Below, piece by piece: positions 520 through 52,728 of a stretch of DNA of 64,000 nt. Positions within the stretch are counted from its first letter, which is position 1. Every line of letters begins with the position of its first letter. This DNA comes from Gigantopelta aegis (Eukaryota; Mollusca; Gastropoda; Neomphalida; Peltospiridae), in assembly GCF_016097555.1 (NCBI RefSeq), contig NC_054706.1, positions 72,184,380 through 72,248,379 of the forward strand, in the 5' to 3' direction. Position numbers and translations under genes: made by a program. The notes under the pieces were generated by a model. The model saw only the letters and a program-made list of their open reading frames with translations, had not been told where the DNA came from and did no database searches.

Positions 520-33912
<33,393 letters not shown>

Positions 33913-43518: not shown

Positions 43519-43635
43519 TCAGTTGATGAACTGGGCCAGCCATCGGAATCCTTCACCGTAACCCTGTCTCTTTAATACACTGCACATGAACAACTCCATG
43601 GGACGGCCAGGCAGGTCATTCCGACTCACATTTCC
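43519..43635 (-). CDS. SAR1: SAR1 terminal coding exon
   Basis: 38 codons plus TGA (43521-43519), acceptor GTTGCAG. It encodes [20 protein letters not shown] then [18 protein letters not shown]. The CSVLK segment is the G5 region, and the ending matches the SAR1 GEGFRWxxQxI C-terminus. Confidence 0.97.
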
Positions 43636-46600
43636 CTGCAACAGAAAAAAACACATCTTGTACTGGAAATGAAAGAAAGAAAGAAAAGAGAAAAAGAAAT
43701 GTTTTATTTAACAATGAACTCAACACATTTTAATTATGGTTATATGGTATCTGACATAAGGTTCAGGACAGATAATGAGAGAGGAAACCCACTGCTGCCA
43801 CTTCATGGGCTAATCTTTTTGATTAGCAGTAAGGGATCTTTTATATGCACCATCCCATAGACAGAACAGTACATACCCTGGCATTATGGAGCACTGGCTG
43901 GAATGGCAAACAACCCAAATGGGTCTACCGACAGGGATCGATCCTAAATCGACTATGTTTCAGGTGACCACTTTACCATTGGGATACATCCCACCCTCTG
44001 TATTGGAAATGTGATTTCCCGTCAACAGATATCCATTAATGTGACCAGTATTTAACACACATCAAAATAACAAGTCTGGCAGTTGTACAAATAAACAGCA
44101 ATAGAACTAGTGACAAAGAATGAAGTTCATGTATTTTAATATATGGGAATTTTTGACCCATCATGTAAAGGAAATGTCAAGCAAAGTTTCCATACCAGTT
44201 ACAGCTTACCTTTCCCGTTGTCATTCCATGAAGACCGAACAAGTGTCTAATTTCTTCCTCACTGGCGGCACCCGGTTTATCAATCTTGTTACCTAGAATC
44301 AATACGGGGGCATTGGCTACCTGCTCATCGGCTAACAAACTCTGAAAAACAACAGGTAGTGTTAGCAACATTCAGTATCACCGAGCACATCTCTCACTTC
44401 TTACGGTCTGAACCAAAATCTTAACTTTAAATCAAGTGGAAGACATGCTTAGCAGGCTCTAGAAAACTAAAGGGTTGCTGTGAACATTTCACAAAAAACT
44501 AAAACAGGACAGTTTTCTCGTTTGTTCTGATGGATGCTGATGGTAAGTAAAATATACTGTAAATAAAAAGCTACATGTTTTCTTGTAAATAATTTCTGTT
44601 TTGTTTGATGTAAGAAAAAAAGTTATTTTTTTTTGAAAATAACAAAAAATTACTATTTCTGTGTCCAATTTAGAAAACAATCAGCTCAGAAATAAATAAC
44701 GTGTAGTAAATTCCTTAGCATGAAAAAAGGCATTCCCCATGATCAAGATGGATCAAGAACTACAGGTATAAATACTAGTTATACATAAACTCTGTTAATA
44801 GGCTAACTTAATAAACAGCACAAACAATGACACCACTAGAGCGCACTTATTTTTTTATTAATCATCAGCTATTAGTCTCATAGTCTTCACAAAACCTTTT
44901 TCAATTAGCAGCATACCATTTATATGCAATTTCCCCCAGACAGGACAGCACATACCACAGCCTTTGATATACCAGTCAAAGAATGGGTTTAGAGGCCATC
45001 CATAATTTTCAACATTTTCAGTGTACAAAGAGTACACTTTTGACCAACTTTTAAAGCAACTGAAACATAACCACTCACATCTAATTCAACCTTTGCTTCT
45101 GAAAATCTTTCCCTGTCGAAGGCATCAATAAGAAAGACAACCCCGTCAACTGCTGGAAAATAGTCTTTCCATACTCGTCGGGCTGTTGACAAAAACAAAC
45201 AAATCATCATGAATGCATTTAGTATAATATTAACGTAATGATTACTTTATTATAAGTTTAGTAGTATTAATTTTTTGCCAATGTGTTGTTGAAATTAAAG
45301 AAACACACAAAAATATTTTTGTATCAAATGTCTCTTTCATTTTGATAGTGTGAAGACTGGATTAAGAACCACTACCACTATTTAATTATTATAATCATAA
45401 TAACCCTATCTTTGTTTTAATTTTATTGAAAACATTTAAGTAAGAAAGAACAAAGTATTTCATAAAGAATTAAGTGCAAAACATGTCATAGCAATGACAT
45501 GTTACCATTGGCAACAGTTAATAAAATGTAATAGAAAACTCTCATAAACTATATTACAGAGAAGAACTCTGATAATAGAGAATATGGGGGGAAAATGTCT
45601 GAAATGCATGATAAAGAAATAACCTTTGCTAGGGACTGATTAAAGAAGAACAAAGAATTTCTGTTTAATGACGCACTCAACACATTACTATTTTTATGGC
45701 GTCAGACATATGGTTATGGACAGATGAGAGAACACCCACTGTTGTCACTTCATGGCCTACTATCATGGATTGGCAGATACGGATCTTTTATATATGTTAT
45801 ATCACCTTACTCTTGCTAAAACAAGAAATAGCCAGATGACTCAACAGGATTGACATAAACACAAGTGGGGGTAGCACTGGCAGGATAAACATTTATAACA
45901 TTAATGATGGGCAATGTTATTATATACAATGAAGACTAAAGCTCAAAAGGCAGTACAAGAAGAATACATTATACACTTCAGCACATTTAAAACAAACACA
46001 TCAGCACATTTAAAACAATGGCTGTTTTGACCCTTGATTTAGAAAGAGGAAAGCTGGTACCTCTACCAAAAAGTGGCACTTTCTCATAGACAGGACAGTA
46101 TATACCCATGGTCTTTGATGTACCAAGTATGGGGCACTGGTTGGGAAGGAAGGAAGGAATATTTTATTTAATGATGCACTCAACACATTTTAATTAGTTA
46201 TATGGCGTCAGACATATGGTTAAATATCAGAGAGAAAACTCGCTCCCACCACACCATGGGCTACTCTTTTTTATTATAGCAGCAAGGGTTCTTTTATATG
46301 CTCTATTCCACAGACAGGACAGAATATGGCACAGCCTTTTTCACACCAGTTGTGGAGCACTGGCCGGAATGAGAAATAGCCTAATGGGCCCACCAAGGGA
46401 GATCAATCCTAGACCGACCGCACATCAAGCAAGTGCTTTACCACTGGGATACGTCCTGCCCTACACTGGTTGGGACGAGTGGGAAAATCGATCCTATGAC
46501 CCATGGCGTGTCAGGTGAAAACCCTAGCACCGTACTGAGCTACATCCTAATCCCAAGTAGCAGCACGAAGATGATCATCACCTTGTTTATGTCCGCCCAG

Positions 46601-49600
46601 ATCAAACGTGGTGAACTTCATGCCACCCATCGACAGCTCCTCTGATGCTGAAATGAACAATTGTCTGTTTAATTAGCAAGTCTATACATGTAGTTACAGA
46701 ATGTGAATACTGGAAATAATCAGAAATCATAGTTTGCCATTCATATCCTATTCCTTTTCGCTAGTTACTTAGTGCATAACTTATATTCATTATCGTATTT
46801 CAGTATGTGTACTTTATTGTGGCCATTAAGTTAAATATTATTCATCCTGCTACTTAACACATTCATTTCATGCAAATCAACATTTTCCTTTAAAAAAACA
46901 AAATAATAAAAATAAAATCATTTCAATTTTTAAAACTAAATCTAATTTAATATCAGGAAAATTACATCTTACAATGTTACAGTACTATCTATATACCTTA
47001 TTACAATCACACATTACACAGAAATGTATACAATGTTTCTTATTATTAATATTAAACATTATTTTAAATATTCTATTATAAGAAAATTTACTATCACACT
47101 TCCTAATTAATTAGCCGTAAACATAACATTCATGCTCTTACACATTATGTTAATGAACACACAAGTTATTAAAAAACAAAACAAATATTAATGTTGTAAA
47201 AAATACACTAATCTTGAAGTGTTAAAATTATTAATGTTCAGTGAACAAAACGGGTATTAGCCGAGATATCATATATACAGGTACATGTGCATTTGGTGAC
47301 AAATTTATCAATTATTAACATCTTAATTACTTTATTAAATTAAATTTTAAAAGGTTAGACCCAAAAGCAAGGCCCAAAATTCATTGTGTGGAGTGGAAAG
47401 CAATTCTTGTCGCTCAAAAATCGGGAAGCAGTTTTAGAAATTTATTTTAAAATTGAACTCCTTATTAAATGTATCGCATAACTTTTTTCAAGCGAACATG
47501 TGTTAATTCTGATATGATGAATATTGGACTAAATGTGGAATACTGATAAAACATAACATGGAATGAAAAAGCTGTCTGTGAAATTGATTATCAGAAAGCA
47601 TATTGTGCATTTCAAGTAGCATATTGTGCATTTCAAGTAGCATATTGTGCATTTCAAGTAGCATTTGCTGCTTGCCTTCAGTCAGTTTTGAGCCATGCAA
47701 ATGTACTTCCAGTTATCAATTTTTTCAACATCAATTCTAAACTTCTACCCCTTTACAGTGATCACTTATTGCAAAAATATATAACCATTTATTTAAACTG
47801 TAATGCTTTGAATTAGCATTTAATAATAATATAAAAGGTATGTATTAATAAATTGTATATAATATGCAGATAAAAGACCACAAAATAAGATTTATGTTTG
47901 TTTTTAAACAAGACTCCGGATATGGTTGACTATCGTTGGTATCCAACATGCAACAAGGTACAGGAAGCTACATGTACTTGTAGAATCTGTGCAATTAATT
48001 AATCTCCATGTTCTGGGGATTTTAGGGAGAGGGGGTAGTTTTCATTTGTTATCTTTTTTCATTTTTGTTAAGTAAATGCAGAAATTTATGTTGTTAATGA
48101 CAAGCACTACTGAAGAAAGAATATATGTGTATTTATTATTAAACAACCACACATTATAGTCTAAGCACTATTTTCAAAAGTCAAACTTTTCAGACAATAT
48201 CTACTCCATGTACATGAAATCACTAAAATCTAGTCCTCTGCAAAGCCGCGCGATTACATCGGGGAAACATATGCTGTATCAGTATCCTCTTACTTGGGTG
48301 GAGTGTGGGGACATGCTGTGCCATTCTGTCATCTTTGAGCATGTGCAACAGAGTTGTCTTTCCTGCATTGTCAAGGCCCAGAAACACAAGCTTACCAGAC
48401 TTTTTGTACAAACCTACAAAATCAAACACATGCAGTTAGGACACACAGGCAAAACAAAAACAAAACAAAACAAAACACAGAACAGAGACAGTTCACAACT
48501 AAGGTTGGTACTGCAATCACAGCAAGGTATGTGCAAAATAAATTATTAATAGGCCAAGGATTATCCAAACTTCATCAAAGGTTAAATGCATGTCTTGAAT
48601 GTGGAGAGAAATTAAAAAAAAACATTTTCTAATAACAACAAAACAGGGATACGAATCTTATTTTTTGTAATTCTGAACCTCGAGAACTGTGACCATGTAT
48701 GATGTATATATGGAATGCATGTACTGACTGACACTCTTTTCTAATAATACATTTCCGACTATAATGATGACAGTCCATCAAGGAGGTGGTTTCTGGTATT
48801 ATGGCTCTCTTTGGGTTCTTGCACGTGGTATTAAAGGCCATGGAAAAGCTCATATAAAAGATCCCTTGCTACAAATGAAAAAAATGTGTGGGTTTCCTCT
48901 CTAAGACTATGTCAGAATTACCAAATGTTTGATATCCAATAGCTGATGATTAATAAATCAATGTGCTCTAGTGGTGTTGTTAAACAAAACAAACTCAGTT
49001 TAACTATAGTTTCTAGATTTGCAAATTGGGTGCATGTCATCCCATGAATTTAAATCCTAATTGAAACACTGGTTTCATTTCTTTTTGAACTGTTAAAATC
49101 AACTTGTAAAAGATCACATTTAGTACAAAACGCTTTTACATTCCTTTGATGAAGTTAGCCTGATTAGTATTCAAGTGAACCAGGTGCTGAAATGCCAAGT
49201 GCACTATGGGTAAGTTTCACAAGCAGGTGATCTGTCTAAAGCACGGTTACCACATACTGGGGTGCAGTGTCGGGACAGGCTGGACCATGTGCCCCTCTTT
49301 GAGGACACCTAACAACGTAGTTTTTCCAGCATTGTCCAAACCCAGAAGTATCAGTTTTCCAGACCTTTTAGTCAACCCTAAATAACATGCAAAATCAAAC
49401 AGTTTACTGAAACTTTGTTAGATATACTGTGTATGGTACAGAGCTGACATTTAAAATATTTTTTTAAAAACAAAAAGAAAGTAACTATTTAATCAAATTA
49501 CATAATTTCTCTTTGCTCGCATTACACATACTTTCCCCCTCCCCTCCATTACTACATCTAACAAAATTTTAAAAATTAAAAAACACAATAGGGAATCACT

Positions 49601-52554: not shown

Positions 52555-52718
52555 ATTCTAACATAAGTTATTATTTACCAAAAATTAAATGTGTTATTTT
52601 GTAACAAAGTATACACATTTTATGTAGGCCTATACAACCGTGTCAGTTTACCAGTTCAAATTACCCTCAACCTACCAAGGAAATTTAGCATACTCGCAAA
52701 CCATTCCCATAGAAACAT
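43519..52718 (-). CDS. SAR1: SAR1 small GTPase (COPII), with duplicated P-loop exon
   Basis: SAR1 is the Arf-like GTPase that inserts an N-terminal amphipathic helix into the ER membrane and recruits SEC23/24 and SEC13/31. Coding exons on the - strand: 52718-52676, 49377-49258 or 48413-48294, 46647-46582, 45182-45079, 44341-44210, 43635-43519. Either P-loop exon gives a continuous 193-residue protein, close to the usual 198. The N-terminus [15 protein letters not shown] fits the SAR1 membrane helix. G1 is GLDNAGKT (27-34), switch I has VPTLHPTSEEL, G3 is DLGGH (70-74, with the catalytic His), G4 is NKID (129-132), and the C-terminus is [15 protein letters not shown]. There is no myristoylation glycine at position 2, unlike ARF. 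A 5' non-coding exon is expected upstream but was not found. Assignment is very secure; whether both variants are expressed is unknown. Confidence 0.96.
43668..43998 (-). mobile_element. SINE, inverted, in SAR1 last intron
   Basis: Full-length inverted copy: AATGTTTTATTTAACAATGA at the left, GATCGATCCTAAATCGACTA (B-box complement) and GGGATACATCCCACC at the right. Flanked by imperfect repeats of TGGAAATG. Confidence 0.87.
44210..44341 (-). CDS. SAR1: SAR1 exon 5
   Basis: 44 codons, phase 0 to 0. It encodes [20 protein letters not shown] then [19 protein letters not shown] and MTTGK. The guanine-specificity motif NKID is intact. The donor is AAG|gtaagc. Confidence 0.96.
44342..45078 (-). other. 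SAR1 intron between exons 4 and 5
   Basis: Contains a degraded inverted SINE at about 44828-44980 (ACACCACTAGAGCGCACTTA at the left). Otherwise AT-rich with no feature. Confidence 0.6.
45079..45182 (-). CDS. SAR1: SAR1 exon 4
   Basis: 104 nt, phase 1 to 0. It encodes [20 protein letters not shown] then [15 protein letters not shown], matching the SAR1 [20 protein letters not shown] segment. The donor is GAT|gtgagt. Confidence 0.95.
45660..45860 (-). mobile_element. SINE fragment, inverted
   Basis: CTGTTTAATGACGCACTCAA then TTTTATGGCGTCAGACATAT, a diverged copy lacking its head. Confidence 0.75.
46140..46462 (-). mobile_element. SINE, inverted, near full length
   Basis: Begins GGAAGGAATATTTTATTTAA and ends TTTACCACTGGGATACGTCC. 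It ends about 120 bp from the SAR1 exon 3 donor. Confidence 0.87.
46582..46647 (-). CDS. SAR1: SAR1 switch exon
   Basis: 66 nt, phase 1 to 1. It encodes [20 protein letters not shown] then KQ, with the G3 motif and the catalytic histidine equivalent to human His79. The donor, CAAG|gtgatg, is weaker than consensus. Confidence 0.94.
46648..48293 (-). other. SAR1 intron between exons 2b and 3
   Basis: AT-rich, 1.6 kb. The only structure seen is a 21-bp tandem repeat near 47594-47665. No second switch exon was found here. Confidence 0.6.
47594..47665 (+). repeat. 21-bp tandem repeat, three copies
   Basis: AGCATATTGTGCATTTCAAG T repeated three times, then a partial fourth copy. Confidence 0.92.
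48294..48413 (-). CDS. SAR1: SAR1 alternative P-loop exon, canonical copy (2b)
   Basis: 120 nt, phase 1 to 1, acceptor TTTTGTAG and donor CCAA|gtaaga. It reads [20 protein letters not shown] then [19 protein letters not shown], which is nearly the vertebrate SAR1 sequence. It is separated from copy 2a by about 0.84 kb of intron. Confidence 0.95.
48414..49257 (-). other. Intron between the two SAR1 P-loop exons
   Basis: About 0.84 kb. Includes a + strand SINE tail at 48830-48998 (ATAAAAGATCCCTTGCTACA, AATAAATCAATGTGCTCTAG TGG). It is long enough that a spacing-based block on joining both exons is unlikely. Confidence 0.65.
49258..49377 (-). CDS. SAR1: SAR1 alternative P-loop exon, upstream copy (2a)
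   Basis: 120 nt, phase 1 in and phase 1 out, acceptor TTATTTAG and donor CCCA|gtatgt. It reads [20 protein letters not shown] then [19 protein letters not shown]. All GTP-binding residues are kept. Differences from the other copy cluster before the P-loop (T/Y, R/K, IL/VF) and in the loop before switch I (GVLKEGH against HMLKDDR, P against H). The open frame, matching phase and conserved motifs suggest a maintained exon rather than a dead copy. Confidence 0.88.
49725..49895 (+). repeat. Dispersed repeat (GAATGTTTAACGACACCCC type)
   Basis: Starts AATGAATGTTTAACGACACC and carries CGGCTATTGGGTGTTAAACT and AAGGACTGTGCAAAAACAC. It matches 9605-9725 and, inverted, 15340-15390. Confidence 0.75.
50574..50852 (+). 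mobile_element. SINE with alternative tail
   Basis: Main-family head (GGGACATAGCCCAGTGGTAA, GGGATCGATCCCC) and body, but the tail is the AATAAATCAATGTGCTCTAG type instead of the CGTCGTTAAATAAAAC type. Confidence 0.87.
51450..51722 (-). mobile_element. SINE, inverted, internally deleted
   Basis: GGAAATGTTTTATTTAACGA at the left, ATGCACCATTCCATAGACAG in the middle, GCGAGCGATTTACCACTGGG at the right. Part of the B-box side is missing. Confidence 0.85.
52508..52548 (+). repeat. (TA)n microsatellite
   Basis: About 20 TA units in SAR1 intron 1, about 130 bp from the exon 1 donor. Confidence 0.95.
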
Positions 52719-52728
52719 CTTTGTTCAC
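52676..52728 (-). CDS. SAR1: SAR1 first coding exon
   Basis: The exon starts after acceptor TTTGCAG at 52728 with 10 nt of 5'UTR, then ATG at 52718-52716. Fourteen codons, [14 protein letters not shown], and one base of Gly precede the donor G|gtaggt. The first Met fits the SAR1 N-terminal length. The aromatic and hydrophobic pattern is that of the membrane-bending helix. Confidence 0.92.

Follow-up and report, generated by a model that had tools for sequence, protein, structure and literature searches.

A tandem pair of putatively alternative P-loop exons in the SAR1 gene of the gastropod Gigantopelta aegis

RESULTS AND DISCUSSION

The SAR1 gene and its two copies of exon 2

The window, i.e., the whole 64-kb stretch of Gigantopelta aegis DNA that was analyzed, carries on its minus strand a complete SAR1 coding sequence, in which all the introns between the exons are of the GT-AG type (Table 1). 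Upstream of the first coding exon, the TTTGCAG preceding position 52728 is likely the 3' splice site of a putative 5' UTR intron. The second coding exon occurs in two copies, 2a and 2b, separated by an intron of 844 nt, and the original prediction of two 120-nt exons with equal phase and intact splice sites was confirmed in its coordinates and in the AG and GT borders present on both exons. In both copies, the upstream boundary splits the Gly15 codon behind its first base, and the downstream boundary follows the A of a Thr codon, to which exon 3 supplies CA. The joining of exons 1, 2b, and 3 to 6 yields a SAR1 of 193 amino acids, and the joining of exons 1, 2a, and 3 to 6 yields another SAR1 of the same length; the inclusion of both copies gives 233 amino acids, as anticipated in frame, and the skipping of both gives 153, with the frame kept in all four combinations.

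Copies of a dispersed element resembling a SINE, which starts with a 'cagtggtaaagc'-like sequence and has an 'agatccctt'-like central part, were recognized by eye in the introns and in the downstream flank, and elsewhere in the window a 226-amino-acid open frame gave no Pfam match at an E value of 0.001.

Table 1. Positions in the window of the SAR1 exons and of the sequence elements discussed in the text
Feature	Positions	Strand	Remarks
Coding exon 1	52676..52718	-	donor GTAGGT
Exon 2a, alternative P-loop exon	49258..49377	-	120 nt; donor GTATGT
Exon 2b, canonical P-loop exon	48294..48413	-	120 nt; donor GTAAGA
Exon 3	46582..46647	-	completes Thr of HPT
Exon 4	45079..45182	-	
Exon 5	44210..44341	-	contains NKID
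Exon 6, coding part	43519..43635	-	stop TGA
12-mer TGTTTGATTTTG before exon 2a	49390..49401	-	
12-mer TGTTTGATTTTG before exon 2b	48417..48428	-	
TGCATG (UGCAUG, RBFOX-type) before exon 2a	49386..49391	-	starts at -14
TGCATG (UGCAUG, RBFOX-type) before exon 2b	48429..48434	-	starts at -21
GU/U-rich stretch ahead of the 2b acceptor	48440-48490	-	TTTTGTTTTG repeats and CTGTGTGTC
Comparable place before exon 2a	49440-49490		shorter T-rich run
SINE-like element copies (by eye)	46500-46160, 43995-43700, 39150-38880	-	introns and downstream flank
Open frame, 226 aa	33232-33912	+	

Assignment of both predicted forms to SAR1

Both forms strongly match the Arf family of Pfam, with 209.8 bits for the 2b form and 201.7 bits for the 2a form. 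When the first 76 residues were compared with PDB chains, the nearest ones for either form were SAR1a and SAR1b, which we take to be the human proteins, just as we take the further SAR1 chains used for comparison to be those of yeast; the SAR1a chain scored 131.1 bits with the 2b form and 102.4 bits with the 2a form, against 37.4 and 40.3 bits, respectively, for the best ARF-family chain. SAR1 is recognized by a hydrophobic N-terminal helix and by the lack of the Gly2 needed for myristoylation, and the N terminus encoded here is a hydrophobic helix without Gly2. Furthermore, the P-loop GLDNAGKT, the switch I motif PT.HPT, DLGGH, and NKID occur in both. Judged by sequence, both forms belong with SAR1 rather than with ARF.

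A probably single SAR1 gene in the assembly

The full 2a-form protein was searched against the whole assembly (1,149,253,464 bases in 5216 contigs), giving 38 listed matches. Every one of these above 60% identity belongs to the exons of the window, exon 1 being covered by a short match of 73%. Outside the window, the six matches that exceed 130 amino acids are ARF-family-like, with 31 to 37% identity, and the remainder are weaker or shorter. Thus, protein searches of the 1.15-Gb assembly gave no second SAR1 locus among the matches listed, and it is likely, on these sequence comparisons, that the assembly holds no second SAR1. When the whole genome was searched with 2b plus part of exon 3 as the protein query, exon 2a was matched at an E value of 7.3e-11, and it is flanked by the other SAR1 exons in their proper order; the resemblance is thus not due to chance.

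These results bear on the idea that exon 2a derives from a second SAR1 gene or a processed copy, or that it is an assembly error. The whole-genome matches listed include the exons of just one SAR1, no further candidate for exon 1 was apparent in the window, and no additional copy of exon 2 was found in the three introns above the best of 40 shuffles. Moreover, 2a and 2b are not one piece assembled twice, because 36 of their 117 bases differ. Nothing in favor of such an origin emerged, and we consider it very improbable.

As a side observation on the same assembly, a mollusk-type hemocyanin is encoded in it, which agrees with a molluscan origin of the DNA: Haemocyan_bet_s matches exceed the cutoff, with none in 14 control genomes, and the PDB chains matched strongly were hemocyanins, KLH1 among them. 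A search for egg lysin, aimed at a narrower taxonomic placement, gave no match in the genome, nor in the controls.

Divergence and selection between exons 2a and 2b

The recount of identical residues gave 28 of 39 whole codons, the same value as first claimed, and identity at the base level is 81 of 117. The base differences are distributed over codon positions 1, 2, and 3 as 8, 7, and 21, an excess at the third position (P = 0.0018). The Nei-Gojobori comparison over the 39 codons, a pairwise test of 2a against 2b without outgroup DNA, returned a dS of 1.57, a dN of 0.22, and an omega of 0.14 (bootstrap 95% interval, 0.05 to 0.33; 1 or more in none of 5000 replicates), so that the dN/dS check proposed along with the original prediction points to purifying selection. 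With 29 synonymous sites, dS is near saturation, and since its bootstrap runs from 0.75 to the ceiling of 3, the duplication can be claimed only to be old.

The 11 replacements lie where they had been placed by the original prediction, 4 ahead of the P-loop and 7 between the P-loop and switch I. None of them falls within the 15 residues GLDNAGKTT and VPTLHP, a set taken as named in the initial finding (P = 0.0015), in agreement with the claim that the GTP-binding residues are kept in both exons. In a neutral simulation with all the divergence on one lineage, the 28 identical residues were kept in none of 100,000 runs, and no stop arose in 40%. The absence of a stop is thus weak evidence, and it is the pattern of changes that carries weight. 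On this pattern, the pair is to be regarded as under purifying selection, and 2a as long kept by selection.

In human SAR1 numbering, which equals the numbering of this protein plus 5 and is used below, 2b agrees with human SAR1A and SAR1B at 10 of the 11 replaced positions and with yeast at position 51. The agreement with human SAR1A amounts to 37 of 39 residues for 2b and 27 of 39 for 2a, and the 11 replacements appear to sit on the 2a side. In particular, K24, F30, H43, M44, D48, and R49 are common to 2b, human SAR1A and SAR1B, and yeast and are altered in 2a, which could reflect relaxed constraint. The residues of 2a include T22, G43, V44, G48, H49, and P53. By these comparisons, 2b is the canonical version, and 2a has changed at a higher rate while remaining constrained. 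An ARF-derived origin of 2a was rejected: one of the genome's own ARFs is slightly closer to 2a (16 of 39 residues) than to 2b (15 of 39), and G48 and V51 of 2a are ARF-like, but 2a is far closer to SAR1, agreeing with human SAR1A at 27 of 39.

It is possible to hypothesize that 2a was long used and then recently lost, being now a fresh fossil exon that the spliceosome skips. The sequence would be compatible with recent neutral evolution over as much as about 0.1 substitutions per site: of 20,000 simulations, 18% passed at 0.05 and 3.6% at 0.10, where a simulation passed if it was free of stops, had 11 replacements or fewer, and retained the pocket (here LDNAGKTTL and VPTLHP, shifted by one residue from the set given above and likewise 15 unchanged residues). 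The weak donor of 2a and its replacements at positions common to 2b, human, and yeast would agree with such a loss. However, the passing fraction drops to 0.15% at 0.2 substitutions per site, to one in 20,000 at 0.3, and to none at 0.4, and the splice-site dinucleotides and the 12-mer TGTTTGATTTTG are undamaged, which makes a recent loss of 2a unlikely. The original prediction of an alternative P-loop exon in SAR1 is upheld in part, in that 2a is intact, evidently maintained by selection, and placed so that either exon would be usable. The two forms may also differ in GTP exchange, effector binding, or cargo size, as it suggested.

Sequence shared at the two acceptors

The 12-mer TGTTTGATTTTG and a UGCAUG at the acceptors of 2a and 2b were noticed after the fact. 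The sense strand of the window contains the 12-mer only twice, upstream of 2a and of 2b, and the opposite strand contains it once. None of 1000 dinucleotide shuffles of the 40-nt upstream flanks of the two exons reached a sharing of 12 nt, and with wider flanks of 60, 100, and 150 nt, the shuffles that reached it numbered 3, 8, and 14 of 1000, respectively. The longest common stretch in the other 20 of the 21 SAR1 acceptor pairs is 8 nt, and when the 1774 YAG sites along the sense strand of the window were compared with the 2a flank, 2a itself and 2b were the only ones with 12 nt in common with it. Genome-wide, the 12-mer followed by TAGG within 20 nt was found at 56 places (41 for the reversed control), 2 of which are in SAR1, 964 bp apart. 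Gapped alignment of the 150-nt flanks of 2a and 2b revealed nothing beyond shuffles, 99 and 87 of 200 of which reached the score, so that the 12-mer is the one conspicuous similarity there.

Of the seven acceptors, those of 2a and 2b have TGCATG in the 60 nt ahead of them, and the five others, including the putative 5' UTR one, do not; as a background rate, it was found within 40 nt at 38 of 3568 AG sites. Because the synonymous sites are near saturation, the intron identity at the two acceptors is best read as functional, and the shared sequence, 12-mer and UGCAUG together, favors a regulated use of the exons. Since UGCAUG precedes both of them, a switch would need a second input. The genome contains an RBFOX-like RRM exon with 91% identity over 33 residues to an RRM query, and the Fox-1_C family profile had no match in the genome, nor in the controls, and is hence uninformative.

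In the introns, a GU/U-rich stretch made of TTTTGTTTTG repeats and CTGTGTGTC lies ahead of the acceptor of 2b, and the comparable place before 2a has merely a shorter T-rich run. Stretches of this kind are read by CELF and ELAV proteins.

Splice-site strength and means of exclusion

The donor scores, calculated with frequencies taken as typical of donors, are 4.4 for 2a, 7.8 for 2b, 6.6 for exon 1, 7.3 for exon 3, and 7.8 for exon 4, and the weaker donor of 2a fits 2b as the default exon and 2a as the regulated one. Exclusivity would not be achieved via frame-shift surveillance, because all the exon combinations stay in frame. Three other means of exclusion were considered, and none found support: with competing intron pairing, the best duplexes were within the range of eight shuffles in all three pairings (120-nt pieces, with intron 1 represented by its last 1000 nt only); the 844-nt intron is too long for steric exclusion; and, different from the case of exclusion by a distant branch point described in PMC7969005, the CTAAC branch-point-like sites are at the ordinary distances of -41 for 2a and -23 for 2b.

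It could be supposed that the two exons are alternatives without being exclusive, with 2a as an occasional cassette and with double inclusion or skipping also being made and lowering the SAR1 output. The preserved frame of the products of 193, 193, 233, and 153 amino acids, the length of the intron, the ordinary branch-like sites, and the lack of a competing pairing among those examined are all in line with this supposition. On the other hand, a G domain with a doubled or absent P-loop segment would hardly be functional, and output control alone would not require preserved GTP-binding residues in 2a. We consider a nonexclusive cassette rather unlikely, if slightly less so than a recent loss of 2a.

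Taken together, an old tandem duplication of exon 2, with both copies kept as alternative and most likely mutually exclusive exons, is in our opinion a highly probable explanation of the locus. From the gene sequence, it is very likely that 2a and 2b are used as alternative exons and likely that the choice between them is mutually exclusive. Exon 2 of the sole SAR1 gene would have been duplicated in tandem long ago, and exon 1 would be spliced either to 2b, giving the canonical SAR1, or to 2a, giving a variant SAR1, with exon 3 following in either case. Exon 2b would be the default, in view of its better donor score and canonical sequence, and 2a the regulated exon, with a UGCAUG-binding (RBFOX-type) factor possibly acting at the acceptors of both. 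The 2a protein would be a working GTPase in which helix alpha1 and the loop from alpha1 to switch I are altered, and this alteration may change nucleotide exchange or the contacts with the GAP or the coat. That the one SAR1 gene provides two COPII GTPases differing in nucleotide or coat behavior, switched between tissues via the shared acceptor element, is a proposal that we put forward tentatively.

Comparison with known systems

Tandem homologous exons spliced in a mutually exclusive manner are a known class, described in passages of PMC9741552, PMC9013439, and PMC6071210. Like the exons described there, 2a and 2b are adjacent homologues of equal length and phase in which the core function would be kept; different from them, they lie in SAR1, where their exclusive use is predicted from genomic DNA. 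No report of duplicated or exclusive exons in SAR1 was found in the open-access literature (PMC papers under an open license). The term 'Sar1' is absent from the main texts of PMC5740500, on human exclusive exons, and of PMC9741552, and the terms 'alternative splic', 'splice variant', and 'mutually exclusive' are absent from the main text of a review on the posttranscriptional regulation of COPII (PMC7835409).

Among small GTPases, exons 4A and 4B of KRAS are spliced mutually exclusively into KRAS4A and KRAS4B, according to a part of a preprint (PMC9882654). In both cases, one small-GTPase gene gives two GTPases, but in KRAS the last exon, for the C-terminal tail, varies, whereas in SAR1 here the P-loop exon is duplicated, with 11 changes. 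The difference between RAB6A and RAB6A' stems from a duplicated exon, an origin for which we found no paper in the open-access literature. As mentioned in PMC7561474, these two are a splice pair three residues apart, again two GTPases from one small-GTPase gene, compared with the 11 residues that set the SAR1 pair apart. Local exon duplications with mutually exclusive use near functional interfaces are reported for GNAO, GNAQ/GNA11, and preGNAI in sections of PMC5896119; these are likewise GTPase genes with duplicated exons, although the G-alpha proteins are larger and other exons are involved. Duplicated alternative exons are thus an already known type, as in KRAS and G-alpha, and SAR1 is an unexpected gene for it.

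In vertebrates, SAR1A and SAR1B differ at 20 of 198 residues, with conserved clusters at 106 to 117 and 139 to 146, as stated in a portion of PMC7307210. The likeness consists of two SAR1 proteins per animal, here predicted from the gene, but the vertebrate ones come from two genes, whereas here there is one gene with differences at 22 to 53. Because these differences lie in another part of the protein than the vertebrate clusters, functional parallels are only suggested. Exon 2 of human SAR1B is presumably noncoding. For that exon, alternative splicing has been predicted (PMC3029219).

With regard to regulation, in Caenorhabditis elegans RBFOX proteins repress the exclusive exon 5B of egl-15 via UGCAUG in the upstream intron, and UGCAUG in intron 7b of unc-32 helps to select exon 7a (both in passages of PMC3585155). 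Similar to these genes, SAR1 here combines putatively exclusive exons with UGCAUG; however, the C. elegans sites are bound by RBFOX, and the candidate sites in SAR1 precede both exons.

SAR1, which as a COPII GTPase binds GTP and recruits Sec23/24, starts vesicle export and paces export from the ER, and it is usually regarded as one protein per gene. If our reading is true, splicing would achieve in this mollusk what gene duplication did in vertebrates. A natural SAR1 pair differing only in the exon that encodes the P-loop, helix alpha1, and the beginning of switch I would moreover be a natural experiment on the tuning residues, with which exchange, GAP response, and coat size could be mapped.

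Scans of viral and prokaryote sequences

A scan of viral sequences gave 74 pattern matches, none of them confirmed as a relative, and a second scan gave no match. The scan of prokaryote genomes returned 26 loci, all with bacterial or archaeal titles. The one locus inspected, at positions 7411 to 8055 of JABSRF010000156.1, from the metagenome-assembled genome of Oligoflexales bacterium DT_79, is an intronless gene for a SAR1-like GTPase with HPNTDEL and DLGGH that shows 58% identity to the 2a query across 40 residues. The neighboring genes on its contig look bacterial by eye, and the gene is possibly a eukaryotic SAR1 transferred to a bacterium or a matter of binning.
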